From NCBI RefSeq assembly GCF_014646055.1, contig NZ_BMMS01000014.1, positions 62,001-126,000 on the forward strand: a stretch of 64,000 nt of DNA, in the 5' to 3' direction. The DNA is from Wenjunlia tyrosinilytica. GTDB taxonomy: Bacteria > Actinomycetota > Actinomycetes > Streptomycetales > Streptomycetaceae. Under the pieces are notes generated by a model, which saw only the letters and a list, made by a program, of their open reading frames with translations, ran no database searches and was not told the DNA's origin. Made by a program: the position numbers and the translations under genes. Shown piece by piece: positions 33,458 to 46,786 of the stretch (position 1 is its first letter; every line of letters starts with the position of its first letter).

Positions 33458-34735
33458 TCAGGCGAGGCCGACCTCCACCGGCAGCTCCTTGATGCCGTTG
33501 ACGAAGTTGGAGCGCACCCGCGGCACGTCCCCGGTGAGGCGGATGTCCCGGACGCGGGGCAGCAGTTCCTCGAACATGATCTGGATCTCCAGGCGCGCCA
33601 GGGAGTTGCCCAGGCAGAAGTGCGGGCTGCCCTTGCCGAAGGTGACATGGTCGTTGTCGCGCCGGGTGACGTCGAAGTCGTACGGGTTGCCGAAGACCTT
33701 CTCGTCGCGGTTGCCGGAGGCGAACCACAGGACGACCTTGTCGCCCTCCTTGATCTGCTTGCCCCCGAGTTCGACATCGCGGGTCGCCGTACGCCGGAAG
33801 TGGTAGACGGGGGAGGCCCAGCGCAGGAACTCCTCGACGGCCTTGGGTATGAGTGCCGGATCCTCCCTCAACCTCGCCAGCTGCTCGGGATGCTGGATGA
33901 GCGCCAGCATGGAGTGCGTGATGGTGTGCCGGGTGGTCTCGTTCCCGGCGACCACGAGGAGGAGGAAGTAGTTGTCGAAGTCGGCGGGGGACAGCGGTAC
34001 GCCGTCGGCCGGGGTCTGGTTGACGAGCCTGCTCACCAGGTCGGTGCCATCGCCGCCCCGGCGCTCGGCGGCGAGGCGGCGGCCGTAGTCGAAGACCTCG
34101 AGGGAGGCGGGGCTGCGGAAGGGCAGATCGCGGTACCGCTCGCTCTCCTCGCTGTGCAGCAGCACATCCGCGTAGTCGGGGTCGGTGTTGCCGATGATGC
34201 GGTTGCCCCAGTCGATGAGCTGCTGGGTGTCCTCCTCGGGGACGTCGAGCATCCGGGCGAGGACATTGATGGGGAAGTCCGCGGAGACCTCCTTGACGAA
34301 GTCGAAGCGGCCCTTGGGAAGGGCGGCGTCGAGCGTCTTCGCGGTCAGGCCGCGCAGGAAGGCTCCGTACTCGGCGACGGCGCGGGGCGTGAACTGCTTC
34401 TGCAGCATCTGGCGCAGCGCCCGGTGGCGCAGGCCGTCGCGCTCCAGCATGGAGGCGCGGATCGCGATCTGGCTGTCGTCCAGCTCCTCGAGGTTGACGA
34501 ATCTGGAGGAGGTGAAGGTCTGCGGGTCGCGGTCGACCCGGACGATGTCCTCGTGCCGGGTGACGGCCCAGAAGCCCTGGTTGGGGGAGGGTTCGGGCTG
34601 CCAGTGGACCGGGTCCTCGTGGCGGAGGGTGTGGAACATCCGCCAGGGTGTGACGCCGTCGAGGAAGTTGTCGTTGTCGGCGAGGTCCACCTCCTCCAGC
34701 GGCATGGCGTAATCGTCGGGCAGGGTGTTCGTCAC
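33458..34735 (-). CDS. Cytochrome P450 of the catabolic cluster
   Basis: The 425-residue P450 has the I-helix VVAGNETTRHTITHS (oxygen-binding Thr), the ExxR motif EEFLR, and the heme loop FGKGSPHFCLGNSLA with Cys374 as ligand. LWFASGNRDEKVF resembles the CYP124/125/142 and cyclic-amine (CYP151) branches. It is 27 bp downstream of the glutamine-synthetase-like gene in one operon, while a [3Fe-4S] ferredoxin and a reductase start the divergent operon. These three should form a complete class I P450 system. GS-like genes next to P450, ferredoxin and reductase are also found in mycobacterial morpholine/piperidine loci, so a secondary amine or an aromatic ring is a plausible substrate. Confidence 0.92.
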   Translation of the reverse strand: MTNTLPDDYAMPLEEVDLADNDNFLDGVTPWRMFHTLRHEDPVHWQPEPSPNQGFWAVTRHEDIVRVDRDPQTFTSSRFVNLEELDDSQIAIRASMLERDGLRHRALRQMLQKQFTPRAVAEYGAFLRGLTAKTLDAALPKGRFDFVKEVSADFPINVLARMLDVPEEDTQQLIDWGNRIIGNTDPDYADVLLHSEESERYRDLPFRSPASLEVFDYGRRLAAERRGGDGTDLVSRLVNQTPADGVPLSPADFDNYFLLLVVAGNETTRHTITHSMLALIQHPEQLARLREDPALIPKAVEEFLRWASPVYHFRRTATRDVELGGKQIKEGDKVVLWFASGNRDEKVFGNPYDFDVTRRDNDHVTFGKGSPHFCLGNSLARLEIQIMFEELLPRVRDIRLTGDVPRVRSNFVNGIKELPVEVGLA

Positions 34736-34762
34736 GGGTGCTCCTGGTGGCGCCGGCGGCGG

Positions 34763-36118
34763 TCAGAGGTGGTAGGAGTACTCGGCGAACTCCCAGTCGG
34801 TGACATGGCGCTCGAAGCGTTCGGCCTCGTCGCGCTTGTAGGTCAGGAAGGAGGCGGTGAACTCCTTGCCGAGGACGTCGGTCAGGGCCTCGTCCGCCTC
34901 CAGCGCGTCGAGCGCGGCGGTCAGGCTCATGGGCAGGACGGGCGATCTCTCCGGGTCGTAGCCGTAGCCCTCCAGCGGCGGGGGTGGCTCCTTTGCCTCC
35001 TGGATGCCGAGCAGCGCCGCGGCGGCGATGGCGGCGACGGCCAGGTAGGGGTTGGCGCCTGCGTCGCCGAGCCGAAGCTCCATCCGGGCGCCGGAGCCGC
35101 GCTCGGGAGGCACGCGGACCATGGCGCTGCGGTTGTCCAGGCCCCAGTCGACGAGCCAGGGGGCGAGGGTGCCCGGTCCGAAGCGCTTGTAGGAGTTGAC
35201 AGTGGGGTTGAGCAGGGCCGCGAGCGCCGGTGCGTGCGCGAGCATGCCGGCGACGGCGTGCCGGGCGGTGTCCGAGAGGCCGAAGGGGGCGGCCGGGTCG
35301 CCGAAGGTGTTCTCCCCCCGGACGTTCTCGCAGGAGAAGTGGACGTGGAAGCCGGAACCGCCCGCGTCGTTGAAGGGCTTGGCCATGAAGGTGGCGAGCT
35401 TGCCCTCCTTGCGGGCCAGTTCCTTGACGGCGGCCTTGAAGAGGAAGGCGCGGTCCGCCGCGTTCAGGGCCTCGGAGTGGGTCAGGTTGATCTCGAACTG
35501 GCCGCCGTCGAACTCGTGGTTGCCCGAGACCACGCCGACGCCGAGGTCGTGCAGCTGCCGCATGGTGCGCAGCAGGTGGTTGCCGGGGTCGGCGCGCAGG
35601 CCGGTGGTGTAGACGGCGCCGCTGACCTCGCTGGAGCGGCGCCATCCGGTGGCGGTGCCCGGGGCCTGCTCGCACAGGAAGTACTCCAACTCCGGTCCGA
35701 CGACCGGTCGTAGGTCGTGCTCGGCATAGCGGGCGAGCACGGAGCGGAGCATGTCGCGCGGTGACTCGGGGCAGGGGGCTCCGGTGACGGGGTCGGTCGT
35801 GTCGCCGAGGCACCAGGCGACTCCGGGCTCCCAGGGGATGGGGGTCAGGGTGTCGAGGTCGGGGCGTACGGCGATGTCGGGCAGTCCGGCGTCGAGCCCG
35901 CCGGTGATGGGCACGACGCCGCCGGCCGGGGTGGTGTGGTAGATGGCCCGGCAGAACGCCAGGCCGTGCCGGCACGCGGCCGGCAGATGGCCGAGCAGGA
36001 TGTCACGGCCTCGGTCGCTGCCGATGAGATCGGGGTAGCCGACCCGCACGACGTCGATGCCCTGGGCGGTGAGACGGTCGATGTGCTGCTGGAGCTGAGG
36101 CTGTTCTTGAGCGCTCAC
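34763..36118 (-). CDS. Glutamine-synthetase-like ligase (gamma-glutamylamine synthetase type)
   Basis: The 451-residue protein has the GS fold: VVRVGYPDLIGSDRGRDILL in the beta-grasp part, VVGPELEYFLCEQ, VVSGNHEFDGGQFEINLTHS (metal-binding Glu), FNDAGGSGFHVHFSC and NPTVNSYKRFGPGTLAPWLV with RMELRLGDAGANPYLA. The Tyr-adenylylation loop and the usual ammonium-site Asp-Ser pattern of true GlnA are not seen. This favours ligation of glutamate to an amine, as in PuuA, GlnA3/GlnA4, IpuC or aniline TdnQ. The GTG start follows GAGGAGAC. A PuuD-like hydrolase, two aldehyde dehydrogenases and a permease in the same regulon support the gamma-glutamylation reading; the amine itself is unknown. Confidence 0.88.
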   Translation of the reverse strand: MSAQEQPQLQQHIDRLTAQGIDVVRVGYPDLIGSDRGRDILLGHLPAACRHGLAFCRAIYHTTPAGGVVPITGGLDAGLPDIAVRPDLDTLTPIPWEPGVAWCLGDTTDPVTGAPCPESPRDMLRSVLARYAEHDLRPVVGPELEYFLCEQAPGTATGWRRSSEVSGAVYTTGLRADPGNHLLRTMRQLHDLGVGVVSGNHEFDGGQFEINLTHSEALNAADRAFLFKAAVKELARKEGKLATFMAKPFNDAGGSGFHVHFSCENVRGENTFGDPAAPFGLSDTARHAVAGMLAHAPALAALLNPTVNSYKRFGPGTLAPWLVDWGLDNRSAMVRVPPERGSGARMELRLGDAGANPYLAVAAIAAAALLGIQEAKEPPPPLEGYGYDPERSPVLPMSLTAALDALEADEALTDVLGKEFTASFLTYKRDEAERFERHVTDWEFAEYSYHL

Positions 36119-36177
36119 CGGGTCTCCTCAGGCGGGCGGGAACGGGTGGCGGCCTCGGGGCTGGGCGCCCCGAATTC

Positions 36178-36218
36178 ATTTGATCCCAAACAGTAGGGAC
36201 GCGCCCAGCCCTCCGCAA
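36178..36218 (-). promoter_or_regulatory. Promoter and operator of the GS-like/P450 operon
   Basis: Reading the minus strand, TTGCGG (36218-36213), 17 bp, and TACTGT (36195-36190) form the promoter. GTTTGGGATCAAAT overlaps the -10 and start region (36191-36178). The same GTTTGG-N4-CAAA core occurs at the ferredoxin, permease and second aldehyde dehydrogenase promoters. Confidence 0.65.
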
Positions 36219-36254
36219 GGGGTTGCCCTCAATTTTTATCCATGTGGATAGCTA

Positions 36255-36299
36255 TTGACCACGCCCGGCCTCCTGCCTATGTTGTTTGGAATCAAACGA
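36255..36299 (+). promoter_or_regulatory. Promoter and operator of the ferredoxin-led operon
   Basis: TTGACC (36255-36260), 17 bp, TATGTT (36278-36283) is a near-consensus housekeeping promoter. GTTTG-GAAT-CAAAC (36284-36297), a perfect dyad, follows immediately and would cover the transcription start, consistent with repression by a dimeric regulator. Confidence 0.75.
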
Positions 36300-36329
36300 C
36301 TAGTGGGGCGCAGCCTCGGGAGGACCGCC

Positions 36330-36518
36330 ATGAAGGTCGTCGTCGACATGAACAAGTGCCAGGACCACGGACAGTGCGTCTTCGCCGCCCCCGAGGTCTT
36401 CCAGCTCGACGAGGGCGCACACCTGGTGTTCGTCGGTGAGCCGGACGACTCGCTGCGCGAGCAGGTCGAGGACGCCGCGGACGTCTGCCCGCTGCAGGCG
36501 ATAGCGATCGAGGACTGA
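36330..36518 (+). CDS. [3Fe-4S]-type ferredoxin for the P450
   Basis: The 62-residue protein has ligand pattern Cys10-x2-His13-x2-Cys16 and Cys53-Pro. His replaces the second Cys of a [4Fe-4S] site, which is typical of actinobacterial P450 ferredoxins. ATG 36330 has GGGAGGA 6 bp upstream and gives the normal length; the longer frame runs back through the promoter. It is 3 bp before the reductase gene. Confidence 0.93.
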   Translation: MKVVVDMNKCQDHGQCVFAAPEVFQLDEGAHLVFVGEPDDSLREQVEDAADVCPLQAIAIED

Positions 36519-36521
36519 GGC

Positions 36522-37748
36522 ATGCCCGGACGCATCGTGATCGCCGGCGCCTCGCTCGGCGGCCTGCGGGCCGCCGAGCATCTGCGGGCCGCGGGCTGGA
36601 AGGGGCGGATCACCGTCGTCGGCGACGAGCCCCATATGCCGTACAACCGGCCGCCCCTGTCGAAGGAGGCACTGGCCGGGAAGACCTCGTTCGAGTCGCT
36701 GGCCTTCCGGCCCAGGGCCGCGGCGGCCGACGTGGAGTGGCGCCTTGGCACCGCCGTGACCCGCGCCCGCCCGGCCGGCCGCCTCGTCGAGCTCGAGGGC
36801 GGCGAGCGGCTGCCCTTCGACGGCCTGGTCGTCGCCACCGGGACGCGTCCGCGACGGCTGCGCTGCGAGGGCCCCGTCGTCGGGCGGTACACCGTGCGCA
36901 CCCTCTCCGACGCCGAGGAGCTGAGCGCGGCCCTGACCCGGCCGGGCGTACGGGTGGTGGTCGTCGGCGCGGGCTTCATCGGCTGCGAGGTGGCCGCCAC
37001 CGCCATCGGCCTCGGTGTCACCGAGGTCACCGTCGTCGACCCCGAGCCGCTGCCCATGCTGCGCCCGCTCGGAGAGCTTCTCGCTCGCGCGCTGCGCGAG
37101 CGGCACGAGGCACGGGGTGTGCGGTTCGCCCTGGGGCAGGGCGTGGCCGCGTACTCGGGCGAGGACCGGGTCACGGGCGTCGTGCTCACCGGCGGCGCCG
37201 TACTGCCCGCCGATGTGGTGGTGGAGGCGGTCGGTACGGTCTCCAACACCGAGTGGCTCGAGGGCAATGGCCTCGACCTGTCCGACGGAGTGCTCTGCGA
37301 CAGCGCTCTGCGGGTCGGCGGGCTGCCGTACGTTGTCGCGGTCGGCGATGTCGCCCGCTTTCCGAACGCCCGCTACGACGATGTGCCGCGCCGCGTCGAG
37401 CACTGGTCGATCCCCGGTGACACCGCCAGGCACGCGGCGAGGACCCTCGTCGCCGCACTCACCGGGGCGGCCCCGGTCCCCGCGCCGTTCGCCCCGCTGC
37501 CCTCCTTCTGGAGCGACCAGTACGAGTACCGCGTCCAGTCGTTCGGCGCACCGGTCCTCGGCACCGCCGACGCCAGGGTCCTGGACGGCGACCCCGCCGG
37601 TGACGTCCTGGTCGGCTACCACAGCGGCGGCCGGCTCGTCGGCGTCGTCGCCCTCGGGGGCCCGTCCGCCGCGGCAGCCGCCGCCCGCCACCGCGCCGAA
37701 CTGCTCCGGCAGCCGGCCCTCACCGCGCAACCAGGAGAAGAAACGTGA
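36522..37748 (+). CDS. FAD-dependent ferredoxin reductase
   Basis: The 408-residue reductase has an FAD-binding IVIAGASLGGLRAAEHLRAA at residues 5-24, NRPPLSKEAL, the central ATGTRPR, an NAD(P)H-binding VVVVGAGFIGCEVAATAIGL near 145, and the FAD-contact VAVGDVARFPN, followed by the C-terminal dimer domain. This is the putidaredoxin-reductase/rhodocoxin-reductase type. It follows the ferredoxin by 3 bp and its stop overlaps the next GTG, so it belongs to the same operon and passes electrons from NAD(P)H through the ferredoxin to the P450. Confidence 0.92.
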   Translation: MPGRIVIAGASLGGLRAAEHLRAAGWKGRITVVGDEPHMPYNRPPLSKEALAGKTSFESLAFRPRAAAADVEWRLGTAVTRARPAGRLVELEGGERLPFDGLVVATGTRPRRLRCEGPVVGRYTVRTLSDAEELSAALTRPGVRVVVVGAGFIGCEVAATAIGLGVTEVTVVDPEPLPMLRPLGELLARALRERHEARGVRFALGQGVAAYSGEDRVTGVVLTGGAVLPADVVVEAVGTVSNTEWLEGNGLDLSDGVLCDSALRVGGLPYVVAVGDVARFPNARYDDVPRRVEHWSIPGDTARHAARTLVAALTGAAPVPAPFAPLPSFWSDQYEYRVQSFGAPVLGTADARVLDGDPAGDVLVGYHSGGRLVGVVALGGPSAAAAAARHRAELLRQPALTAQPGEET

Positions 37749-38605
37749 CCAGCGTCCGCGGCTACTTCCACCCCAAGACGGCGACGGGTGACGCGTCGCT
37801 CATCCCCTCGCCCCCGTGGCACTACTCCGGCGACCTCGTGACCGTCGAGTACCGCACCGACCCGGCGCGGGTGCGCGAACTCCTGCCCGAGCCGCTCGGG
37901 CTCGCCGAGGAGGACCCGGGCGCGGTGGCGCTCATCTGGGCCGACTGGCAGTCCTGCTCCGACACGGGCGGCGAACTCCTCGACCCGGTGCGCTCCCAGT
38001 ACAAGGAGGCCTTCGCCGTCGTGCGCTGCTCGTACCGGGGGCGGACGTACTCGCGGTGCGTCTACATCTGGGTCGACAAGGACTTCGCCATCGCCCGCGG
38101 CCTGCACCAGGGCTACCCGAAGAAGCTCGGCTCCATCCATATGACCCGCCCTCACCCCTACGGCCCGGCGCCGCGCATCGAGGCCGGGGCCCGCTTCGGC
38201 GTGAGCCTGGCCGCCGCCGACCGGAGGCTGGCCCAGGCGGTGGTCACGCTGCGCGAGCCCTCCGAGAGCAATGGCTTCGTCAACGGGCACCCCATGGCCC
38301 ACCACCGCTGGCTTCCCTCCATCGAGAAGGGCAAGGGCCTGGCACTCGACGAGCTCATCGAGTCGGGAGCCGCCTCGTTCGAGGGCGGCCCGCCGTGGGC
38401 CGCGGACGCCGACCTCGAACTCTTCGAGGCCCCCACCGAGGAGCTCGCCCGCCTGGAGATCCACGAGCCCATCGGCGCGTACTACCGCCAGGTGGGGGTG
38501 ACCTGGGACGGCGGCACGCTCCTGGCGTCGGGCACCTCGGCGGTCGACCGGGCGGTCGAGGGGGCGGTCGAGGGGGCCGGGTCCGTGGACGGGGCGGACG
38601 GATGA
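37745..38605 (+). CDS. Acetoacetate-decarboxylase-like enzyme
   Basis: The 286-residue protein has the ADC-fold pattern: PSPPWHYSGDLVTVEYRTDP, LIWADWQSCSD, and DFAIARGLHQGYPKKLGSIH with Lys126/Lys127 at the place of the Schiff-base lysine. Members of this superfamily include decarboxylases and, in Streptomyces, aldolase-dehydratases. Here it may act on a ring-cleavage product in the pathway, but that is inference. The GTG start overlaps the reductase stop (GTGA). The C-terminal tail is a short acidic Val/Glu/Gly repeat (DRAVEGAVEGAGS), an odd low-complexity addition. Confidence 0.82.
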   Translation: MTSVRGYFHPKTATGDASLIPSPPWHYSGDLVTVEYRTDPARVRELLPEPLGLAEEDPGAVALIWADWQSCSDTGGELLDPVRSQYKEAFAVVRCSYRGRTYSRCVYIWVDKDFAIARGLHQGYPKKLGSIHMTRPHPYGPAPRIEAGARFGVSLAAADRRLAQAVVTLREPSESNGFVNGHPMAHHRWLPSIEKGKGLALDELIESGAASFEGGPPWAADADLELFEAPTEELARLEIHEPIGAYYRQVGVTWDGGTLLASGTSAVDRAVEGAVEGAGSVDGADG

Positions 38606-38712: not shown

Positions 38713-40203
38713 ATGCCAGAACAGCCCCCCACCGCCCCGACGGCGGCCGTGGTCGCCGGGGTCGCGGTCGACACCCGGCACTGGATCGGCGGCGAACGCG
38801 TGCCGTCCGCACAGACGTTCACCGATGTGTCGCCGATCGACGGACGGACGCTGGCGGAGGTCGCACGCGGCGGCACCGACGAGGCCGATGCGGCCGTGGC
38901 GGCGGCGCGGGAGGCCTTCCCCGCGTGGGCGGCGACACCGCGTACCGAGCGGGCCCGGATCCTGCACGCCATCGCCGACGGTGTCGAGAAGCGCGTCGAG
39001 GACCTGGCGATCGTCGAGACCCATGACAACGGCGCGCTCCTGCGCTCGCACCGGCGGGGCGTGATGCCGCGCGTGGCGCACAACTTCCGCTTCTTCGCCG
39101 ACTGGCTGCTGAAGCTCGAGCACGAGGACTTCGACACCCGCGGCCACACCAACCACGTCTCGTGGGACCCGGCAGGCCCCTGTGTGCTGATCACCCCCTG
39201 GAACGCGCCGCTGATGCTGGCCACCTGGAAGGTCGCCCCGGCGCTGGCGGCAGGCAACACCGTCGTCCTCAAGCCCGCCGAGTGGTCCCCGCTGACCGCG
39301 TCATTGCTCGCCGACATCGCCGCCGAGGCGGGACTGCCGGCCGGAGTGCTCAATGTCGTCCAGGGGTACGGGGCCGAGGCGGGCAACGCCCTCGTCTCGC
39401 ACCCGGACGTCCGGCGGATCAGCTTCACCGGGTCCGTGCCGACCGCGCGGCACATCGCCGCGGCGGCCGCCGCGAACCTCACCCCGGTCAGCCTGGAACT
39501 CGGCGGCAAATCACCCCTTCTGGTCTTCGCGGACGCCGACCTCGACCTCGCGGTCGATCTGGCGGTCGAGCAGTACGACAACGCCGGACAGGTCTGCCTC
39601 GCGGCGACCAGGATCCTGGTCGAGGCCTCGGTCGCCGAGGAGTTCACCCGCCGCTTCACCCGCAGGGCGGCCGCCCTCACCCAGGGCGACCCCCGCGCCG
39701 ACGGCACCGACATCGGCCCGAACATCCACCCCCGCCAGCTGGAGAAGATCCACGGCTTCGTCGAGCGTGCCCTCGGCGCCGGGGCCCAGGCGGTCGTCGG
39801 CGGCGGACCCGACACCGAACTCGGCGGGCTCTACTACCGCCCCACTCTCCTCACCGGGGTCGAGCAGGACTGGGAGATCGTCCAGGAGGAGGTCTTCGGC
39901 CCCGTCCTGACCCTGCAGACCTTCGACACCGAGGACGAGGCGGTCGCCCTCGCCAACGGCACGCGCTTCGGTCTCGCCGCGACCCTGGCCACCGGCGACT
40001 CCGAGCGTGCCGAGCGTGTGCGCGCGCGGCTCGTGGCGGGGACGGTGTGGGTCAACTGCTTCTTCGTCAGGGACCTTCGGGCGCCCTTCGGAGGCTCCCG
40101 CCACTCCGGCATCGGCCGCGAGGGCGGCACCTGGAGCTTCGACTTCTACTGCGACGTGAAGAACGCCGTGACGGCCCCGAAGGGATGGCGCGACCATGGG
40201 TGA
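38713..40203 (+). CDS. Aldehyde dehydrogenase (HpcC/betaine-aldehyde type)
   Basis: The 496-residue NAD(P)-dependent enzyme has catalytic Glu262 in LELGGKSP and Cys295 in NAGQVCLAATR, with cofactor motifs PWNAPLMLATWKVAPALAAG and FTGSVPTA. ATG 38713 has GGAG 8 bp upstream. An alternative ATG at 38602 overlaps the previous stop and would add 37 residues of low similarity, so I prefer the later start. Position before a homoprotocatechuate-type dioxygenase suggests oxidation of a ring-cleavage semialdehyde (as HpcC does) or of an amine-derived aldehyde. Confidence 0.9.
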   Translation: MPEQPPTAPTAAVVAGVAVDTRHWIGGERVPSAQTFTDVSPIDGRTLAEVARGGTDEADAAVAAAREAFPAWAATPRTERARILHAIADGVEKRVEDLAIVETHDNGALLRSHRRGVMPRVAHNFRFFADWLLKLEHEDFDTRGHTNHVSWDPAGPCVLITPWNAPLMLATWKVAPALAAGNTVVLKPAEWSPLTASLLADIAAEAGLPAGVLNVVQGYGAEAGNALVSHPDVRRISFTGSVPTARHIAAAAAANLTPVSLELGGKSPLLVFADADLDLAVDLAVEQYDNAGQVCLAATRILVEASVAEEFTRRFTRRAAALTQGDPRADGTDIGPNIHPRQLEKIHGFVERALGAGAQAVVGGGPDTELGGLYYRPTLLTGVEQDWEIVQEEVFGPVLTLQTFDTEDEAVALANGTRFGLAATLATGDSERAERVRARLVAGTVWVNCFFVRDLRAPFGGSRHSGIGREGGTWSFDFYCDVKNAVTAPKGWRDHG

Positions 40204-41107
40204 GATCGTCGGCGCGGGCCTGCTCGCGCACGTGCCCACCATCGTCCTCCCCGAGGCCGAACGCCTCAGGCTCAACAACGGCAAGGAGATCACCCTCGTC
40301 ACCGGCCTCAACCGGCTGCGTGAGGAGGTGTTCGCACGCGACGACTACGACACCGTGGTCGTCCTGGACTCCCACTGGGCCACCACCGTCGAGTTCGTGG
40401 TCACCGCACAGCAGCGCCGCGCCGGGCTGTTCACCTCCGAGGAACTGCCGCGCGGAATGTGCCGGATGCCGTACGACTTCCCCGGCGACCCCGAACTCGC
40501 CCGCAACATCGCGAGGTTCGCCGACAAGCACGGCACCTGGATCACCGCGATCGATGACGAGTACCTGCCGATCTACTACGCCACCGTCAATCTGTGGAAG
40601 TACCTCGGCGAGGGCCTGCCCGGCAAACGCTGGATCACCATCGGCGTCTGCCAGAGCGGCGACATGGAGGACCACCTGCGCCTCGGCCGGGCGCTCGCCG
40701 ACGGCATCGCGGCCACCGAGGGCCGCAGGGTGCTGCTGATCGCCTCCGGGGCCCTGTCGCACACCTTCTGGCCGCTGCGCGAGCTGCGTGACCACGAGGC
40801 GAGCGACCCCGTCCACATCTTCACCCCCGAGGCGCGGGCGGCCGACAACGAGCGCATCGCCTGGTTTGCACAGGGCCGCCACGACGAAGTCCTGCGCACC
40901 ATGCCGGAGTTCTGGAAGCACAAGCCCGAGGCCCGCTTCTTCCACTATCTGATGATGGCGGGGGCGCTCGGCGAGGGGGCCTGCACGGCACCCGGCCGCC
41001 AGTACAGCGAGTACGAGAACTCGATCGGCACCGGTCAGGTGCACATCTGGTTCGACCGCCCGGCCGGCGGCTGGACCGCGCCCCGAAGCACCGCACAGAC
41101 GCACTGA
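40196..41107 (+). CDS. Type III (LigB-like) extradiol dioxygenase, homoprotocatechuate 2,3-dioxygenase-like
   Basis: The 303-residue protein follows E. coli HpcB in several blocks: LLAHVPTIVL (metal-binding His12), VVVLDSHWATTVEFVV for the HpcB DTHW segment, LFTSEELPRGMCRMPYDFPG, LLIASGALSHTFWPL with an active-site His, and the terminal IGTGQVHIWFD. These are the iron ligands and acid-base His of type III extradiol enzymes, which open a catecholic ring next to the two hydroxyls. The substrate should be a catechol with a side chain, such as 3,4-dihydroxyphenylacetate; exact specificity cannot be read. The start overlaps the aldehyde dehydrogenase stop by 8 bp. Confidence 0.85.
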   Translation: MGEIVGAGLLAHVPTIVLPEAERLRLNNGKEITLVTGLNRLREEVFARDDYDTVVVLDSHWATTVEFVVTAQQRRAGLFTSEELPRGMCRMPYDFPGDPELARNIARFADKHGTWITAIDDEYLPIYYATVNLWKYLGEGLPGKRWITIGVCQSGDMEDHLRLGRALADGIAATEGRRVLLIASGALSHTFWPLRELRDHEASDPVHIFTPEARAADNERIAWFAQGRHDEVLRTMPEFWKHKPEARFFHYLMMAGALGEGACTAPGRQYSEYENSIGTGQVHIWFDRPAGGWTAPRSTAQTH

Positions 41108-41121
41108 ACAGGAGTTCTCCC

Positions 41122-41970
41122 ATGCCTGAGTACCGCCGCATCCTGCTGGACGGCGCCGTCGTCGAGGTCGTCCGCGAGGGCGACGAGCTCCTCGCGGGGG
41201 ACGGCCGGCTCGTCAAGGCCGACGAGGCCCGGCACCTTCCCCCCGTGGTCCCGTCCAAGATCGTCGCCGTGCACCTCAACCATCGCAGCCGGGTGGAGGA
41301 GTTCGGGATCGACCTGGCGCCGACCCCGACCTACTTCCACAAGCCGACCTCCTCGCTCAACTCCCACAAGGGCGCCATCGTGCGCCCCGAGGGCTGCAAG
41401 TGGCTCAACTACGAGGGCGAGGTCGCCATCGTCATCGGCCGGACCGCGCGCAACATCTCCCCGGCGCGGGCCGGCGACCACATCGCGGGCTACACCGTGG
41501 CCAACGACTACGGCCTGCACGACTTCCGTGACACCGACGCGGGCTCGATGCTTCGGGTCAAGGGCTCGGACACCCTCTGCCCGCTCGGCCCCGGCCTGGT
41601 CACCGACTGGGACTTCCACGGCAAGTACCTGCGCACGTACGTCAACGGGGAGGTGGTGCAGGACGGCTCGACCGACGAGATGGAGTGGGACATGCACTAC
41701 CTCGTCGCCGACATCGCCCGCACCATCACCCTGTACCCGGGCGATGTGCTGCTGTCCGGCACCCCGGCCAACTCACGGCCGGTACGGCCCGGTGACGTGG
41801 TCGAGGTCGAGGTGGAGGGGCTGGGCAGGCTCACCAACCACATCGTCACCGGCCCCACACCCGTCCGCGACGACGTGGGCGCGCAGCCGACGGAGTCGGA
41901 GGAGGTGCTGTCCACGGCGCTGGGCGGCGACTGGGAGTTCCGCGGCATCCGCCCGCCGAGGCGCGGCTGA
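41122..41970 (+). CDS. Fumarylacetoacetate-hydrolase family enzyme (HpcE-like)
   Basis: The 282-residue enzyme has the FAH-fold metal site: KWLNYEGEVAIVIG (Glu98, Glu100), YTVANDYGLHDFRD, MEWDMHYLVADIARTITLYP and DVLLSGTPANSRPVRPGDVV. In homoprotocatechuate degradation HpcE-type members decarboxylate or isomerise the ring-cleavage acid; other members hydrate or hydrolyse acylpyruvates. It starts 14 bp after the dioxygenase with AGGAG upstream. hpcD-, hpcG- and hpcH-like genes are not in view, so the lower pathway would need genes elsewhere or another route. Confidence 0.88.
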   Translation: MPEYRRILLDGAVVEVVREGDELLAGDGRLVKADEARHLPPVVPSKIVAVHLNHRSRVEEFGIDLAPTPTYFHKPTSSLNSHKGAIVRPEGCKWLNYEGEVAIVIGRTARNISPARAGDHIAGYTVANDYGLHDFRDTDAGSMLRVKGSDTLCPLGPGLVTDWDFHGKYLRTYVNGEVVQDGSTDEMEWDMHYLVADIARTITLYPGDVLLSGTPANSRPVRPGDVVEVEVEGLGRLTNHIVTGPTPVRDDVGAQPTESEEVLSTALGGDWEFRGIRPPRRG

Positions 41971-42011
41971 GAGGGCTCCGGTGAGCGCGGGACGGCGGGT
42001 AGGGTCGCGCC

Positions 42012-42638
42012 ATGGCCGAATCCGCCGCGGACCCCGGGCCCCGGTCGCGTCCCCGCAAGCGCGTGGGATACGGCGAGGGGCGCGAGGCGCTGCTGACCGC
42101 GGCCGTGCGCGTGGTGGCCCGGCGGGGTCTGCGTCATCTGACGTACCGCGCCGTCGCGCAGGAGGCCGGGGTCACCCACGGCCTGGTCGTGCACCACTTC
42201 GGCTCCCGCGACGCGCTGATCGAGGAGGCCCTGGCCCACGCCGTGCGGATCAGCCTGAGCAGCGCCGCGCTCGAACCGGGGACCGGCATGGTCGACGACT
42301 TCTCCACCGGGCTGTCCGAGATGGTCGAGGCGGACCCGGACACCCAGCTCTTCCAGTACGAGCTCCTGCTCGAGTCGCGGCGCCGGCCGGATCTGCTGCC
42401 GCAGGTGCGCCGGCTGTACGAGGAGTACTTCGGCGCCACCGAGCGGGAGCTGTCACGGATGCTGCCGGCCGGGGCGACACCGGCCCTTGTGCAACTGGTC
42501 TTCTCGGCCCTGGACGGCCTGGTCCTGCACCAGCTGACCCTGGGGGAGCGGGAGTCGACGAACGCTGCCCTCGAGGAGTTGCGGTCGCTGCTGCGGCTGC
42601 TCGACGCGGACGCTCCCCCAGCGGACCGCAGCCCCTGA
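42012..42638 (+). CDS. TetR-family regulator of the catabolic cluster
   Basis: The 208-residue protein has an HTH at about residues 20-65 (GREALLTAAVRVVARRGLRH, then YRAVAQEAGVTHGLVVHHFG) and a helical ligand-binding domain. It is the only regulator gene in the cluster and lies 41 bp after the FAH-family gene, so it is probably cotranscribed. It is the natural candidate to bind the GTTTGGA-N-TCAAAC operators, but a regulator encoded elsewhere is possible. The stop codon is the first unit of a tandem array. Confidence 0.88.
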   Translation: MAESAADPGPRSRPRKRVGYGEGREALLTAAVRVVARRGLRHLTYRAVAQEAGVTHGLVVHHFGSRDALIEEALAHAVRISLSSAALEPGTGMVDDFSTGLSEMVEADPDTQLFQYELLLESRRRPDLLPQVRRLYEEYFGATERELSRMLPAGATPALVQLVFSALDGLVLHQLTLGERESTNAALEELRSLLRLLDADAPPADRSP

Positions 42639-42770
42639 GCGAGCCGCAGCCGCAGCCCCTGAGCGGACAGGGCCCCAGCCCCTGAGCGAGCCGCAGCCGC
42701 AGCCCCTGAGCGGACAGGGCCCCAGCCCCTGAGCGAGCCCCAGCCCCAGCCCCTGAGCGGACCGCACAGT
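42631..42770 (+). repeat. Alternating 24/23-bp tandem repeat starting at the TetR stop codon, six units
   Basis: GCCCCTGAGCG starts at 42631, 42655, 42678, 42702, 42725 and 42749. Units alternate between a GAGCCGCAGCCGCA tail and a GACAGGGCCCCA tail, giving a 47-bp higher-order repeat. The first TGA is the stop of the TetR gene (42636-42638). Confidence 0.9.
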
Positions 42771-42796
42771 GCGGATCGCGGTCGGGTCACGCGGTC

Positions 42797-42893
42797 GTAA
42801 GGAATCAAACAATCCGCCGGATTCCTTGCCGCACCCCCTTGCCGTACGGACCGTTCCGGCCCACCATGAGGCAACTCGTTTGGATGTAAACGA
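42797..42893 (+). promoter_or_regulatory. Operators upstream of the APC permease gene
   Basis: TCGTTT-GGATGT-AAACGA (42876-42893) is a perfect 6-bp-arm dyad of the regulon type. A second related half-site GGAATCAAAC (42801-42810) overlaps the inverted repeat AAGGAATC/GATTCCTT (42799-42827). No convincing -10/-35 pair could be placed. Confidence 0.55.
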
Positions 42894-42971
42894 CAAACTC
42901 CCGGAGCCTCTCCGCGAATCCCCCGCGAACCCCCGCGCTATCCTTCCTCCCCTGAACAGCAGGTGAACGGT

Positions 42972-44438
42972 ATGGACACTTCGACGACCGCCGACCGGCA
43001 CGGAGCCAAGGGTGACGCCCCCGCGGCCGCCGGCTCCCTCAAACGCGACGCACTCGGCGTCCTGGGCATCCTTTTCTTCGTACTGTCCGCGCAGGCACCG
43101 CTGACCGGTATCGCCGGAGCGGTCCCCATCGCCGTCGCGATCGGCAACGGCACCGGTGTCCCGGCCGCCTACCTGGCGGCGGGCGCGATCGTCCTGGTGT
43201 TCTCCGTCGGCTTTGTCGCCATGAGCCGCTATGTCGTGGACGCGGGCGCCTTCTACCGGTACATCGGCAAGGGGCTCGGCCGGACGACCGGCTCCAGCAG
43301 CGCCGGGGTCGCCCTCTTCGCCTACAGCACCATCCAGGCCGCCATGTACGGGCTCTACGGCGCGATCGTCAACGGGCTCGCCGTCACCCATCTGGGCCTC
43401 GATGTGCCCTGGTGGGCGATCGCCCTCGGCACCATGGCGGTCGTGCAGGTCCTCGGCGCCGCCGGGATCGAGATGGGGGCCAAGGTCCTGGCGGTCTTCG
43501 TGATCGCCGAGACCGGCATCCTCCTCGTCTTCGGAATCGTCAGCCTCGTCAAGGGCGGCGGCCCCGAAGGGCTCGGATTCGCGCACAGCTTCTCGCCGGC
43601 GTCGGCCCTGGACGGCGCCCCCGGTGTGGCGCTGATGTTCGCGATCGCCTCGATGTTCGGCTTCGAGGCCACCGCGATCTACGGCGAGGAGGCACGCGAG
43701 CCGAGCCGGACCGTCCCGCGCGCCACCTACCTCTCGGTCGGCCTGATCACCGCCTTCTTCGCCTTCATCTCCTGGATGCTGGTCTCCTCGTACGGCGCCT
43801 CCAAGGCCACCGCGGCGGCGGGGACGGCGTTGGCGAACGGTGACACCACCTCGTTCGTCTTCGCCCCGATCGGTGACCGGCTCGGCGCCTGGACCGGCGA
43901 CGTGCTGCCCTTCCTGCTGGCCACCTCGCTCTTCGCGGGCATCCTCGCCTTCCACAACTCCGCCAACCGCTATCTGTTCGCCCTGGGGCGCGAGGGCCTG
44001 CTGCCGAGGTCGCTCAGCTCCCTCAACAGCCGCCAGGCGCCCCGCACGGCCGGAGTCGTGCAGACGGGTGTGTCCGTGGTCCTGGTCGTCCCGTTCGCGC
44101 TGGCCGGCAAGGACCCGGTGCTGAGCCTGTTCTCCTGGGCCAGCGGGGTCGCGGTGCTGGCGATCATGACGCTGTACTTCCTGACCTCGGTCTCCGTGGT
44201 CGTCTTCTTCCGCCGCGAGCGGTACGACAACCGGGTGTGGAACACACTGGTCGCCCCCGTCCTGGGCGCGCTGGGGATCGCGGGTGCCATCTGGGTCATC
44301 CTCGCCAACTTCACCACCCTCATCGGCGGCGACCGCATCACCGCCACCTGGCTGGCGCTCACCGTGCCGGGCGTCCTTGCGCTGTGCGCGGCGCTGACCC
44401 GGCTTCCGCACGCGCGGCGGGCGCTGTCGCAGGACTGA
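42972..44438 (+). CDS. APC-family amino acid/amine permease (PuuP-like)
   Basis: The 488-residue protein has twelve predicted helices. It starts with ALGVLGILFFVLSAQAPLTG, which corresponds to the APC substrate-binding unwound helix, followed by SRYVVDAGAFYRYIGKGLG and ASMFGFEATAIYGEEAREPS, the conserved E-AR-P motif of the family. It should import the amine or amino acid consumed by the pathway by proton symport. ATG 42972 (AGGTGA upstream) is preferred to GTG 42963. It carries its own regulon operator. Confidence 0.9.
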   Translation: MDTSTTADRHGAKGDAPAAAGSLKRDALGVLGILFFVLSAQAPLTGIAGAVPIAVAIGNGTGVPAAYLAAGAIVLVFSVGFVAMSRYVVDAGAFYRYIGKGLGRTTGSSSAGVALFAYSTIQAAMYGLYGAIVNGLAVTHLGLDVPWWAIALGTMAVVQVLGAAGIEMGAKVLAVFVIAETGILLVFGIVSLVKGGGPEGLGFAHSFSPASALDGAPGVALMFAIASMFGFEATAIYGEEAREPSRTVPRATYLSVGLITAFFAFISWMLVSSYGASKATAAAGTALANGDTTSFVFAPIGDRLGAWTGDVLPFLLATSLFAGILAFHNSANRYLFALGREGLLPRSLSSLNSRQAPRTAGVVQTGVSVVLVVPFALAGKDPVLSLFSWASGVAVLAIMTLYFLTSVSVVVFFRRERYDNRVWNTLVAPVLGALGIAGAIWVILANFTTLIGGDRITATWLALTVPGVLALCAALTRLPHARRALSQD

Positions 44439-44452
44439 CCGGGCGCACAAGA

Positions 44453-44486
44453 GCGCGGCCGGGGCCCCGGCGGGTCCCGGCCGCGC
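44453..44486. terminator. Hairpin between convergent permease and hydrolase genes
   Basis: GCGCGGCCGGG (44453-44463) pairs with CCCGGCCGCGC (44476-44486), 12-nt loop, 15 bp after the permease stop. Confidence 0.65.
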
Positions 44487-44538
44487 GGGTGCGAGCGATC
44501 GGCCCCCGGCCGTGCCCGTATCCGTACGCGTCGCTCCT

Positions 44539-45270
44539 TCAGCGGCGGTGGTCGCGGGCAGCCGTGACGAGGGCGTTGAAGAGCCCCTGCTGGGCCGGGT
44601 CCCGATGGGCGGTGTCCTCGGGATGCCACTGGACGGCGGTGAACCAGCCGGGAGCCCCCGACAGCTCGAGCGCTTCAACGGTGCCGTCGGCGGCCCGCGC
44701 GGTGACGGTCAGGCCGTCCCCGGTACGCCCCAGTCGCTGGTGGTGGTAGCAGGACGCCTCGGCCTTGCCGACGCCGGCCGCCCGCTCGAGGAGCGAGCCC
44801 CGGCGAATCGCCACGGGGTGGAGGAGGTGGCGGTGCTCGTGCTCCGGGCCGCCCATGTCCTGCTGCAGTGTGCCGCCGAGCGCGACATTGACGACCTGGA
44901 GTCCCCGGCAGATCGCGAGCAGCGGCAGCCCCGTGGCGAGAGCGCTGCGTGCGGCCTCCAGGTCGAAGCCGTCCTGCTCGTCGTCGACGTCGTAGACGCT
45001 CTCGTGTGCCTCGGTGTCCCCGTAGCGGCGCGGGGCGAGGTCGCCGCCACCGGGCAGCAGGACGCCGTCGAACCGGGCGAGTCGGGCGGCCACCTCGGCG
45101 GGGTCGGCGGTGCCCCCGGGGGCGTGCGGGTGGATGGTCGCCGGCTCGCCGCCCGCCCGCCAGACCGCCTCGACCAGGGCCCGGGCATTGACCTCGGCGG
45201 CGAAGCGCAGCGCGGAGGTCGAGGCGGCGAAGCGGGCCGGGATCGCGATCAGGGGCCTGGACGCCGTCAC
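44539..45270 (-). CDS. Class I glutamine amidotransferase-like hydrolase (PuuD type)
   Basis: The 243-residue protein has the nucleophile elbow LLAICRGLQVVN (Cys121) and the His216/Glu218 pair in AVQWHPED. This is the layout of gamma-glutamyl-gamma-aminobutyrate hydrolase PuuD and its relatives. It would remove the glutamate that the GS-like enzyme attached, releasing the oxidised product. The GTG start overlaps the stop of the aldehyde dehydrogenase gene by 4 bp, so the two are coupled, as in Puu-type pathways. Confidence 0.9.
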   Translation of the reverse strand: MTASRPLIAIPARFAASTSALRFAAEVNARALVEAVWRAGGEPATIHPHAPGGTADPAEVAARLARFDGVLLPGGGDLAPRRYGDTEAHESVYDVDDEQDGFDLEAARSALATGLPLLAICRGLQVVNVALGGTLQQDMGGPEHEHRHLLHPVAIRRGSLLERAAGVGKAEASCYHHQRLGRTGDGLTVTARAADGTVEALELSGAPGWFTAVQWHPEDTAHRDPAQQGLFNALVTAARDHRR

Positions 45271-46757
45271 AGCTGGATCCAGGTGGTCTTGAGCTCGGTG
45301 TACTTCTGCAACGCGTGCGCCGACTTGTCACGGCCGTTGCCGGACTGCTTCATACCGCCGAAGGGGACGGTCAGGTCCCCCTCCTCGTAGCAGTTGACCC
45401 AGACCGTCCCGGCCTTCAGGGCGCGGGAGACACGGTGGGCGGTGCTCAGGTCGGAGGTCCACAGCCCGGCCGCCAGGCCGTACTCGGTGGCGTTGGCCAG
45501 CGCGACCGCTTCGTCGAGGTCGTCGAAGGTGAGCACGGACAGCACCGGCCCGAAGATCTCCTCGCGGGCGAGGCGCGAGCCGGGGGCCACCCGGTCGAAG
45601 ACGGTCGGCTCCAGGTAGCTGCCGCCCAGGTCGGTGGCGGCGCGGGCGCCACCGGTGCGCAGGCGGGAGCCCTCGTCGACGCCGGTGCCGATGTGGCCGA
45701 GCACCTTCGCGAGATGGCGCTCGCCGACGAGAGCGCCCATCTCGGTGGCCGGGTCGAGCGGGTCGCCGACCCGCAGGGCGCGGGCTCGTTCCACGACGGC
45801 TTCGGTGACGCGCTCGGCTATCGAGGAATGCACCAGCAGACGGGAAGGGGCGGTGCACATCTCGCCCTGGTTGAAGAAGATCCCCCAGGCGGCGGTGGCC
45901 GCGGCGCGGTCGAGGTCGGGGGCGTCGGGGAGGACGATGTTCGGCGACTTGCCGCCGAGCTCCAGCCAGACGCGCTTGAGATTGGAGTCCGCCGCGTAGT
46001 GCAGGAAGTGGCGCCCGACGGCGGTGGACCCGGTGAAGGCGAGCACATCGACATCGGGGTGCAGGCCGATCGCCCGCCCGGCGGTGGGCCCGTCGCCGGA
46101 GACGACGTTCAGCACGCCCGGCGGCAGCCCGGCCTCGGTCGCCAGCCGTGCGAGCGAGAGCCCGGACAGCGGTGAGCACTCGGACGGCTTCAGCACGACC
46201 GTGCAGCCGGCGGCCAGGGCCGGGGCCACCTTCCAGGAGGCGAGGGTCAGCGGGAAGTTCCACGGGACGACGGCGCCGACCACGCCGGCGGGCTCACGGG
46301 TGACCAGGGCGAGCGCGTCGGGGCGGACATGCGGGGACTCGTCGGTGAGCTTGTCGGCCAGTTGCCCGTACCAGCGGAACGTGGTGATCGCGGCGCGCAG
46401 CTCGATGTCGTAGGCGTCGGTGATGGGCTTTCCCATCTCCAGGCTGACGGTGAGGGCGAGCGCGTCCCGCCGCTCCTCCAGCAGCTCGGCGATCCTCAGC
46501 AGCACCCGTCCCCGGTCCGCGGGTGCCAGGCGTGGCCACGGTCCGGAGTCGAAGGCGCGCCGGGCGGCGGCCACGGCGAGATCCACCTCGGCGGTCCCGG
46601 CATCGGCCACGTCGGTCAGCACCTGTCCGTCACGGGGTGAGACAACCGCGAAGGCGGCTCCGCCTCCGGGCTCGTCCACGCCGTCGATGTGGTGCTGATC
46701 GGGCAGGTCCAGCAATGCGGCACAACGCAGCCAGTCATCGCGGGTGACATCCACCAT
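45267..46757 (-). CDS. Aldehyde dehydrogenase (PuuC-like)
   Basis: The 496-residue enzyme has Glu266 in LELGGKSPN and catalytic Cys301 in GEMCTAPSRLL, with PWNFPLTLASWKVAPALAAG and FTGSTAVGRHFL for cofactor binding. It resembles gamma-glutamyl-gamma-aminobutyraldehyde dehydrogenases (PuuC/AldH). ATG 46757 has GGAGG 5 bp upstream and is preferred to the ATG four codons earlier. First gene of a two-gene operon with the PuuD-like hydrolase, under its own regulon operator. Confidence 0.9.
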   Translation of the reverse strand: MVDVTRDDWLRCAALLDLPDQHHIDGVDEPGGGAAFAVVSPRDGQVLTDVADAGTAEVDLAVAAARRAFDSGPWPRLAPADRGRVLLRIAELLEERRDALALTVSLEMGKPITDAYDIELRAAITTFRWYGQLADKLTDESPHVRPDALALVTREPAGVVGAVVPWNFPLTLASWKVAPALAAGCTVVLKPSECSPLSGLSLARLATEAGLPPGVLNVVSGDGPTAGRAIGLHPDVDVLAFTGSTAVGRHFLHYAADSNLKRVWLELGGKSPNIVLPDAPDLDRAAATAAWGIFFNQGEMCTAPSRLLVHSSIAERVTEAVVERARALRVGDPLDPATEMGALVGERHLAKVLGHIGTGVDEGSRLRTGGARAATDLGGSYLEPTVFDRVAPGSRLAREEIFGPVLSVLTFDDLDEAVALANATEYGLAAGLWTSDLSTAHRVSRALKAGTVWVNCYEEGDLTVPFGGMKQSGNGRDKSAHALQKYTELKTTWIQL

Positions 46758-46786
46758 CAGGGCCTCCATGTCCCACCCTCATTTCA

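Follow-up and report, generated by a model that had tools for sequence, protein, structure and literature searches.

Which substrate is served by a gene cluster that joins gamma-glutamylation enzymes, a cytochrome P450 system and catechol-type ring cleavage? The cluster (33458-46769) lies in a 64,000-nucleotide stretch of Wenjunlia tyrosinilytica, hereafter the window (GCF_014646055.1, NZ_BMMS01000014.1, 62,001-126,000, forward strand; all positions follow window numbering). The eleven genes named in a preliminary description were all found as open frames with the expected domains where it had placed them, with a TetR-family regulator amid them (Table 1). The boundary it drew also holds: the three genes past the P450 gene are not conserved with the cluster. 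In 80 relative loci, the response regulator and the ammonium transporter had no match near the cluster, and the ABC gene had a single match of 32%.

We think it likely that the cluster catabolizes an arylethylamine (tyramine, dopamine) with the amine gamma-glutamyl-capped almost from the outset until the final step, a glutamate-retained pathway that the preliminary description did not propose. The gene set, its conservation, intact catalytic residues, a shared operator and a link to decarboxylases were observed; from these we infer the substrate, all reactions, the order of capping and ring hydroxylation, and the direction of the acetoacetate decarboxylase (ADC)-like enzyme.

Table 1. Genes and operator-like sites of the cluster, with the linked decarboxylase gene
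Feature	Position	Strand	Domain, model or remark
Cytochrome P450	33458..34735	-	PF00067
GS-like ligase, proposed gamma-glutamyl-arylethylamine synthetase	34763..36118	-	PF00120
Operator-like palindrome ATTTGATCCCAAAC	36178..36191		gs|fdx divergent promoter
Operator-like palindrome GTTTGGAATCAAAC	36284..36297		upstream of fdx
Ferredoxin for P450, C-x2-H-x2-C type (by eye)	36330..36518	+	PF13370 on frame from 36255; start probable, picked by eye from RBS and motif
FAD ferredoxin reductase	36522..37748	+	PF07992, PF14759
ADC-superfamily enzyme, proposed 2-oxo-3-enoate hydratase and retro-aldolase	37745..38605	+	PF06314
HpaE/HpcC-like semialdehyde dehydrogenase (ALDH)	38713..40203	+	TIGR02299
HpaD/HpcB-like LigB-type extradiol dioxygenase	40196..41107	+	PF02900, TIGR02298
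HpaG/HpcE-like decarboxylase/isomerase, FAH family	41122..41970	+	PF01557, TIGR02303
TetR-family regulator	42012..42638	+	PF00440, PF17940
Operator-like site, one mismatch	42878..42891		upstream of permease
APC-family permease, proposed amine importer	42963..44438	+	PF13520
PuuD-like hydrolase (Peptidase_C26), proposed gamma-glutamyl-GABA to GABA	44539..45270	-	PF07722
PuuC-like ALDH, proposed for gamma-glutamyl-gamma-aminobutyraldehyde	45267..46769	-	NF007352 = best model
Operator-like palindrome ATTTGAGTCCAAAC	46786..46799		upstream of puuC
Tyrosine-decarboxylase-like gene, same genome	C26, L156 4342-5706		85% identical to in-operon decarboxylase; beside MarR-like gene

The ADC-like protein has at least 583 relatives of any closeness in our scan. 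We fetched the 80 loci closest by ADC identity among the matches listed and counted genes in the 67 of them with full flanks. GS-, ADC-, HpcC-, HpcB- and HpcE-like genes occurred together in 67/67 (one locus, L044, is included with a partial GS match), accompanied by PuuD in 64, PuuC in 63, TetR in 63 and the permease in 55; P450, ferredoxin and reductase were present together in 59 and absent together in 8. The eleven genes are one conserved unit, grouped beyond chance. The cluster is not rare; many Streptomyces carry it, as do small-genome relatives. Among 20 stretches taken from more distant genomes of the same class (genome sizes 1.3-8.3 Mb), gs, P450 and hpcC each lay near adc in 17, and puuD in 12. 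Among 18 cluster genomes outside the family, five (G325, G158, G177, G127, G304) had a PuuC match of 52-61% within ~19 kb of adc; of the other 13, six had PuuC matches elsewhere only and seven had none at E <= 1e-120, so another ALDH would have to serve there. PuuD was not seen in the Novosphingobium version of the cluster.

The capping enzymes resemble those of the Puu pathway (PuuA-B-C-D), with which the cluster shares a gamma-glutamyl ligase, a PuuC-like ALDH and a PuuD-like hydrolase, and gamma-glutamyl-aminobutyraldehyde and gamma-glutamyl-GABA are predicted intermediates in both. They differ in the source of the aldehyde, which is putrescine in the Puu pathway and would be the aromatic ring here, and no PuuB oxidase was seen among the cluster genes. 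Scores stayed below the equivalog cut-offs for PuuA (NF045547, 256 of 650 bits), PuuC (NF007352, 547 of 850) and PuuD (NF008471, 72 of 266), the last two being nevertheless the best models for their proteins; because this holds for the named equivalogs generally, we call PuuC, PuuD, HpcB and the others "like" only. Catalytic Cys121, His216 and Glu218 of the PuuD-like hydrolase were intact in 90/90 sequences. Loss of the ammonium-specific flap residue Glu327, as in GlnA3 and GlnA4, marks gamma-glutamyl-amine synthetases in excerpts of PMC5403932 and PMC6529630. At this position the GS-like ligase has Leu in 86 of 92 aligned sequences, Met in 3, and Ile, Ala and Thr in 1 each, with Glu in none. 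It shares the GS fold and the nonpolar replacement of Glu327 with Streptomyces GlnA3/GlnA4 and Pseudomonas PauA7. Loss of Asp50, a second mark of such synthetases, was not found: Asp is present in 92/92. It is lost in GlnA3 and PauA7, and GlnA4 models, too, have Asp (PMC6529630, in part). The GS-like ligase is also linked to ring cleavage, in contrast to the polyamine or ethanolamine genes that accompany GlnA3, GlnA4 and PauA7.

The ring-cleavage enzymes are homologous to HpaD, HpaE and HpaG, with scores below the equivalog cut-offs (TIGR02298, 120 of 316 bits; TIGR02299, 535 of 638; TIGR02303, 207 of 276). In the HpcB-like dioxygenase, His12, His60 and His189 were conserved in 98/98 sequences and Glu245 in 97/97, residues which we take to be metal ligands or catalytic; the HpcC-like ALDH retained its Cys in 97/97. 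The cluster thus shares HpcB-, HpcC- and HpcE-like enzymes, and an end in pyruvate plus an aldehyde, with the homoprotocatechuate (4-hydroxyphenylacetate) hpa/hpc pathway. That pathway yields succinic semialdehyde, whereas the proposed side chain, CH2CH2NH-gamma-Glu, would yield gamma-glutamyl-aminobutanal. It also uses HpcD, HpcG and HpcH, in place of which the cluster has an ADC-family enzyme. Of these three, described earlier as missing, the CHM isomerase HpcD (PF02962) and the HpcH aldolase (HpaI, TIGR02311) had no match in the whole genome, while the HpcG hydratase (HpaH, TIGR02312) had two matches under the cut-off, on contig C45. Without a CHM isomerase, isomerization must be spontaneous or performed by the HpcE-like enzyme.

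The suggestion that the ADC-like enzyme fills a missing step is supported. The enzyme is kin to MppR, which is its best match both among models (TIGR04460, 175 of 380 bits, below the cut-off) and among PDB structures. Lys126, Arg118 and Gln122, present in 102/102 sequences, align with MppR Lys156 (presumably the Schiff-base residue), Arg148 and Gln152, which we take to be catalytic. A Schiff-base Lys with neighboring Arg and Gln, the signature of aldolase-dehydratases, is therefore retained, as in the ADC-superfamily members MppR, SBI_00515 and Swit_4259. In contrast, MppR Glu283, which we assume with some doubt to define its activity, aligns with Val (counted on the alignment). The ADC-like enzyme further differs from the MppR group in its sub-cut-off score and in its proposed hydratase/retro-aldol direction; run backwards, it would replace the missing HpcG and HpcH. 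There is a parallel in Saccharolobus solfataricus, where the ADC-family genes of the phenol-induced locus Sso1221-1223 adjoin a catechol 2,3-dioxygenase and were proposed by the authors to encode aldolases (PMC7820114, in part). Unlike the present cluster, that locus concerns phenol, and the sections available of that paper report no amine or glutamylation.

A complete class I P450 system, whose ferredoxin and FAD reductase are encoded beside the P450 itself, is present as described, and the heme Cys and the Thr of AGNETT were kept in 85/85 aligned P450 sequences. Since all three proteins are missing from some relatives, the P450 is probably the catechol maker, acting by 3-hydroxylation of tyramine or gamma-glutamyl-tyramine or by O-demethylation; the same eight loci argue against the N-dealkylation considered earlier, and catechol formation fits better. 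Its nearest solved relatives are CYP125MRCA (418 bits) and CYP124 (276 bits), together with CYP125 and CYP268. These act on aliphatic chains, which counts against a role in ring hydroxylation. According to the preliminary description, GS, P450, ferredoxin and reductase also occur together in mycobacterial morpholine/piperidine loci, and their grouping here had raised the degradation of a cyclic secondary amine. We find this very improbable: it leaves unused the invariant core of extradiol dioxygenase, HpcC-, HpcE- and ADC-like enzymes, as well as an amino-acid decarboxylase, and the clusters that lack the P450 have no place in it.

Promoters of the cluster and of a distant gene share an operator-like palindrome. 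The exact form TTTGRNNYCAAA occurs 3 times in the window against 0.02 expected, and the pair ~107 bp apart at gs|fdx recurs in relatives. The 14-base operator has four sites in the 8.49-Mb genome, two at gs|fdx, one at puuC and one ~50 bp before a distant tyrosine-decarboxylase-like gene that adjoins a MarR gene. Across this genome and all seven family genomes with an ADC match, 18/19 sites lay at these promoters; in G269 the site at puuC is ~20 kb from its adc. Outside the family there were no sites in G128, G158 and G105, 32 unrelated sites in G045 and one site, just before adc, in G027.

Of 24 genomes (picked from 37 with an ADC match), 9 had a PF00282 pyridoxal decarboxylase no more than 15 kb from adc, against 0.75 expected (P ~2e-8, uncorrected for kinship). 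The cluster-linked decarboxylases form four subfamilies, 25-31% alike. One, found inside the operon in three Streptomyces (L044, L080 and S. lunaelactis pSLUN1), matches tyrosine decarboxylase models best; its L044 member, the in-operon relative of the linked gene of this genome, did not reach equivalog level (TIGR03811, 128 of 905 bits; TIGR03812, 117 of 299). Another is closest to Tyr/DOPA decarboxylase structures (5e-115), and in the small-genome subfamily DOPA decarboxylase is only the third PDB match. A decarboxylase adjoined the cluster in only 1/6 family genomes and 2/80 fetched loci, and homologues of the W. tyrosinilytica gene in G348, G018 and G101 had neither the operator nor the cluster adjoining. 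The decarboxylases would putatively act on tyrosine or DOPA. Three of the four subfamilies score highest against the NCBIfam model for diaminobutyrate decarboxylase, far under its cut-off, as might be expected if the decarboxylases made a non-aromatic amine and the cluster were an assortment of loosely related enzymes serving general detoxification. We give that idea hardly any credence, given a core that includes a ring dioxygenase of the catechol type whose metal ligands are intact, and two decarboxylase subfamilies nearest to tyrosine/DOPA or aromatic enzymes. The earlier proposal of an arylalkylamine (for example, tyramine or dopamine) that is glutamylated before catechol cleavage is instead strengthened, being tied to an amino-acid decarboxylase by neighborhood and shared operator. 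The substrate cannot be read directly from the permease or the ligase, and this, with the P450 in most clusters, would suit glutamyl retention on another catecholic arylethylamine, whether beta-hydroxylated (octopamine, noradrenaline), methoxylated (3-methoxytyramine, the P450 being an O-demethylase) or with a different side chain. Such substrates seem quite unlikely, because the decarboxylase link favors a plain decarboxylated aromatic amino acid.

In the glutamate-retained pathway, the amine would be imported by the permease or made from tyrosine or DOPA by the same-regulon decarboxylase, and the GS-like ligase would form gamma-glutamyl-tyramine or -dopamine. The P450 system would supply the second ring hydroxyl, the HpcB-like dioxygenase would cleave the ring at the 2,3-bond, the HpcC-like ALDH would oxidize the semialdehyde, and the HpcE-like enzyme would isomerize and decarboxylate the product to a 2-oxo-3-enoate. 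Hydration and retro-aldol cleavage by the ADC-like enzyme would give pyruvate and 4-(gamma-glutamylamino)butanal, which PuuC would oxidize to gamma-glutamyl-GABA and PuuD would split into GABA and glutamate, leaving GABA to a transaminase encoded elsewhere (a gene is present on contig C21). The cap would keep the free amine from cyclizing onto the ring-cleavage aldehyde and, later, aminobutanal from closing to a pyrroline. If dopamine keeps the glutamate on its amine while the ring is opened, homoprotocatechuate-type chemistry would yield pyruvate and the PuuC substrate itself, so that PuuC and PuuD each have a substrate. The order in the preliminary description, in which oxidation and deglutamylation precede ring opening, is probably wrong, since no amine-oxidizing gene was seen and PuuC and PuuD would lack their usual kind of substrate. 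Early removal could still proceed if the P450 alpha-hydroxylated gamma-glutamyl-tyramine to 4-hydroxyphenylacetaldehyde and glutamine, with PuuC forming 4-hydroxyphenylacetate, a hydroxylase elsewhere forming homoprotocatechuate, and the Hpc-like set giving pyruvate and succinic semialdehyde. The Hpc-like enzymes are nearest to homoprotocatechuate models, and an Acinetobacter HpaE-type dehydrogenase can also oxidize succinic semialdehyde (PMC12718150, in part). We nevertheless regard this route as unlikely: PuuD has no role in it, we saw no 3-hydroxylase among the cluster genes, GS, PuuC and PuuD are kept in the P450-less clusters, and the Hpc-like matches fall under equivalog cut-offs.

It is also probable, if with a little less assurance than for the pathway itself, that glutamate acts as a protecting group through ring cleavage, that tyrosine or DOPA is converted to GABA and pyruvate, that one ADC-family enzyme is both hydratase and aldolase, and that the breakdown of aromatic amines joins that of polyamines at a shared intermediate, the whole being run as one regulon in Streptomycetaceae and retained as a variant in small-genome members of the class. 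Such a route was not found in the open-licence literature, and we know of no description of a protecting-group strategy through ring cleavage. If correct, it would be a new route from neurotransmitter-type aromatic amines to GABA and pyruvate, and a poorly understood branch of the ADC superfamily would gain a function in the cell. Its predictions about growth, metabolites and the activities of single enzymes are clear and inexpensive to check. It would also sharpen the annotation of such genes, for example those on pSLUN1, where they are currently labeled "acetoacetate decarboxylase family protein," "catechol 1,2-dioxygenase" and "glutamine synthetase family protein."

All eleven genes named in the preliminary description were found in the cluster with the right domains, together with an additional TetR gene. 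Their proteins are homologous to the named-enzyme models, with scores under the equivalog cut-offs, and names such as PuuC and HpcB are therefore used here in the sense of "like". The genome of Wenjunlia tyrosinilytica (G000) comprises 8.49 Mb in 172 contigs, and the window spans positions 62001-126000 of contig C14.

Positions of the cluster and of other features discussed in the text (L### are fetched loci, C## contigs)
Feature	Sequence	Positions	Remark
Cluster, P450 to puuC	window	33458-46769	
puuD-puuC segment	window	44539-46769	puuD on opposite strand to adc
Tap (telomere-associated protein) gene	window	23924-26458	NF047542, 998 bits, cut-off 600
tRNA-Met gene	window	47033-47109	
Second PuuC-like aldehyde dehydrogenase (ALDH)	G000:C14	202154-203623	54% identical to the first
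Own-genome decarboxylase	L156 (on C26)	4342-5706	away from cluster
GS gene of a P450-free cluster	L044	3649-4266	partial match only (48%)

Among the matches listed, the closest named relatives of the ADC-like protein belong to Streptomyces and Streptacidiphilus. A contig scan returned at least 583 relatives, of which the best 80 were fetched, a sample biased to close relatives, and 67 of these loci have full flanks. In these 67, drawn from the best 80 of at least 583, GS, ADC, HpcC, HpcB and HpcE co-occur without exception, the GS match being partial in L044, where the gene may be broken or misassembled. PuuD is found in 64 of the same 67 loci, PuuC and TetR in 63 each, P450, ferredoxin and reductase in 59 each, the permease in 55 and a MarR gene in 46. 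Across the Actinomycetes, 37 of 394 genomes have an ADC-like match, including genomes of 1.3–2.4 Mb. In 20 distant stretches (genomes of 1.3–8.3 Mb), some of which stop at contig ends and one of which (L138) holds just a 38% ADC and nothing else, gs, P450 and hpcC each lie near adc in 17, marR in 15 and puuD in 12. Among 18 cluster genomes outside the Streptomycetaceae, a close PuuC is encoded near adc in 5 and elsewhere in the genome in 6; in the other 7 none was found at E ≤ 1e-120. A version on a Novosphingobium plasmid comprises GS, P450, dioxygenase, two ALDH, FAH, ADC, a 2Fe-2S protein and MarR, and no PuuD was seen in this gene set. Genes for TonB receptors and for a Rieske protein lie close to this proteobacterial version (L172, Novosphingobium sp. 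EMRT-2).

A homoprotocatechuate-type route converts a catechol with side chain R, through intermediates of established structure, to pyruvate and OHC-CH2-R. When R is CH2COOH, the aldehyde product is succinic semialdehyde; when R is CH2CH2-NH-gamma-Glu, it would be 4-(gamma-glutamylamino)butanal. In the Puu pathway this same compound is the substrate of PuuC, and GABA is then freed by PuuD. Thus, if glutamate is kept on dopamine during ring cleavage, a substrate can be named for every cluster enzyme and all of the enzyme genes are accounted for. In the products of DOPA 2,3-cleavage, the amine cyclises onto the aldehyde; a gamma-glutamyl cap would block the corresponding reaction here, and would also block pyrroline formation by aminobutanal. 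From this pathway chemistry, for which the homoprotocatechuate route, as presented in excerpts of PMC12718150, served as the reference, we infer that tyramine or dopamine is broken down to pyruvate and GABA with the cap retained, and that the cap is protective. An aminotransferase at the cluster was considered as proof of GABA formation; because it occurs in only 3 of 20 distant loci, and the two examined belong to different subfamilies, we counted it as neutral.

The scheme assigns a step to the ADC-like enzyme, whose best matches among solved structures are MppR and entries named acetoacetate decarboxylase; we take PDB 4zbo and 6eej to be SBI_00515, and 5upb to be Swit_4259. Members of the ADC family condense pyruvate with aldehydes, and dehydration then gives 2-oxo-3-enoates. 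Run in reverse, as hydration and retro-aldol cleavage, the ADC-like enzyme would cover both reactions normally catalysed by HpcG and HpcH, which are missing. Lys126, Arg118 and Gln122 are conserved in 102 of 102 sequences and align with MppR Lys156, Arg148 and Gln152; the position of MppR Glu283 is Val. According to excerpts of PMC7820114, MppR condenses pyruvate with aldehydes, and two Saccharolobus ADC-family genes that adjoin a catechol dioxygenase gene are induced ~80-fold on phenol and are proposed to encode aldolases. The preliminary description had listed hpcD, hpcG and hpcH as missing; this extends to the whole genome for CHM isomerase and HpaI, which gave zero matches, and needs qualifying for HpaH, which has sub-cut-off matches on contig C45. 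In 86 of 92 sequences of the GS-like ligase, Leu occupies the flap position that corresponds to Glu327 of glutamine synthetase; none has Glu there. GlnA3 and GlnA4 likewise have nonpolar residues in place of Glu327, but Asp50 is retained in the GS-like ligase, unlike in GlnA3. These residue counts omit matches under identity limits of 38–60%, depending on the gene, and include a few genomes twice via overlapping stretches.

A source of the amine is suggested by PF00282 decarboxylase genes. Of 24 cluster genomes, 9 (G042, G128, G177, G201, G261, G280, G341, G357 and G372) have such a gene no more than 15 kb away from adc, against 0.75 expected (P ~2e-8, with kinship ignored). The 24 were our choice among the 37 genomes with an ADC match, omitting G016, G152, G208, G238, G247, G256, G269, G288, G296, G299, G315, G345 and G370. 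The test used the stronger matches; the weaker ones, checked by eye, included none within 15 kb. In the fetched loci L044 and L080 the decarboxylase sits between hpcE and adc, and on the Streptomyces lunaelactis plasmid pSLUN1 one that is 83% identical follows hpcE. The linked decarboxylases and those of L044 and L080 form four subfamilies that are 25–31% alike, a divergence suggestive of repeated origins of the association. For the L044/L080/pSLUN1 subfamily, the two highest-scoring NCBIfam models describe tyrosine decarboxylases (128 bits against a cut-off of 905, and 117 bits against 299), and the top PDB entries are called "putative decarboxylase" and "non canonical aromatic amino acid decarboxylase". 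The top structures for the G261 enzyme are Tyr/DOPA decarboxylases (5e-115). Against the link, the top NCBIfam model for the three subfamilies other than that of L044, L080 and pSLUN1 is diaminobutyrate decarboxylase, far under cut-off. Tyrosine and DOPA are putative substrates. Also against the link, a decarboxylase adjoins the cluster in just 1 of the 6 Streptomycetaceae among the 24 genomes and in 2 of the 80 fetched loci (best 80 of at least 583). Benzylamine-type substrates, which would yield beta-alanine, are disfavoured given the decarboxylase link.

Eight clusters (L032, L044, L054, L074, L078, L080, L083 and L085) lack the P450, its redox partners and the permease and retain PuuC and PuuD. 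Since these clusters are otherwise kept, and since L044, L080 and pSLUN1 have an in-operon decarboxylase, the P450 is probably the catechol-forming step, and P450-free clusters would start from DOPA or dopamine. Inspection by eye of the open frames listed for the eight revealed no HpaB-type hydroxylase or other substitute for the P450. The nearest solved relatives of the P450 are CYP125MRCA, CYP124, CYP125 and CYP268. The P450-free Streptomyces loci L032, L054, L074, L083 and L085 have apparent ABC importer genes (weak matches, by eye) and an extra ALDH, whose best models in L085 are phenylacetaldehyde dehydrogenase, under cut-off.

The main evidence for the proposed pathway is a shared operator, taken together with the pathway chemistry. 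Within the window, the palindrome TTTGRNNYCAAA has three copies against 0.02 expected, two between gs and fdx and one before puuC, and a site with one mismatch precedes the permease. Its longer form, RTTTGRNNYCAAAY, has four copies genome-wide (reversed-pattern control, 0). The fourth site ends ~50 bp before the own-genome decarboxylase gene, which is 85% identical to the in-operon decarboxylase. Of the 19 sites in G000 and the seven other Streptomycetaceae that have an ADC match, 18 lie at cluster, puuC or decarboxylase promoters, the exception being on contig C3 of G208; the reversed pattern gave 0 in all eight genomes. In G269 the site precedes puuC even at a distance of ~20 kb between that gene and adc. 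Of the 67 full-flank loci (best 80 of at least 583), 66 contain a looser form, as do 7 of the 8 P450-free loci, L083 having no site. The operator copies ahead of puuC and of the decarboxylase gene place the gamma-glutamyl, ring-cleavage and decarboxylase genes in one control circuit. Against the decarboxylase link, homologues of the own-genome decarboxylase in G348, G018 and G101 are located elsewhere, without the operator. In genomes from other families the pattern is not kept in this form: G027 has one site, directly before adc, and the site is absent from G128 (one control hit), G158 and G105. In another genome, G045, 32 copies of GTTTGGGACCAAAC are spread over contigs C1, C2 and C9, some paired 41–221 bp apart and none by its cluster; we regard them either as a repeat dispersed through the genome or as a large regulon that has no relation to the cluster.

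The operator is also present in clusters that have MarR and lack a TetR match (L044, L078, L080 and pSLUN1), and a MarR-like gene, 63–68% identical to cluster MarR genes (eight hits shown), adjoins the decarboxylase at the fourth site. Either TetR or MarR could therefore be the operator-binding protein.

No account of this pathway appeared among the matches listed from open-licence PMC full text, ten of which name glutamyltyramine or glutamyldopamine. The enzyme families are already known; both the pathway and a protecting role for glutamate while the ring is opened seem to be new.

The neighbourhood has further features. Tap genes usually mark the ends of linear replicons; here one lies 7 kb before the cluster, far from the contig end. 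In 72 of 73 relatives with puuD, the exception being L078, it is on the same strand as adc. The last cluster operator ends ~230 bp from the tRNA-Met gene, and the puuD-puuC segment beside it is a possible inversion or insertion point. Genes recurrent at the cluster in 100 loci (L009–L088 and L119–L138) include MarR (67), an LLM-class oxidoreductase (21) and a class I amidotransferase (26), which may be a second gamma-glutamyl hydrolase. Contig C14 also encodes the second PuuC-like ALDH, ~93 kb away from the first.
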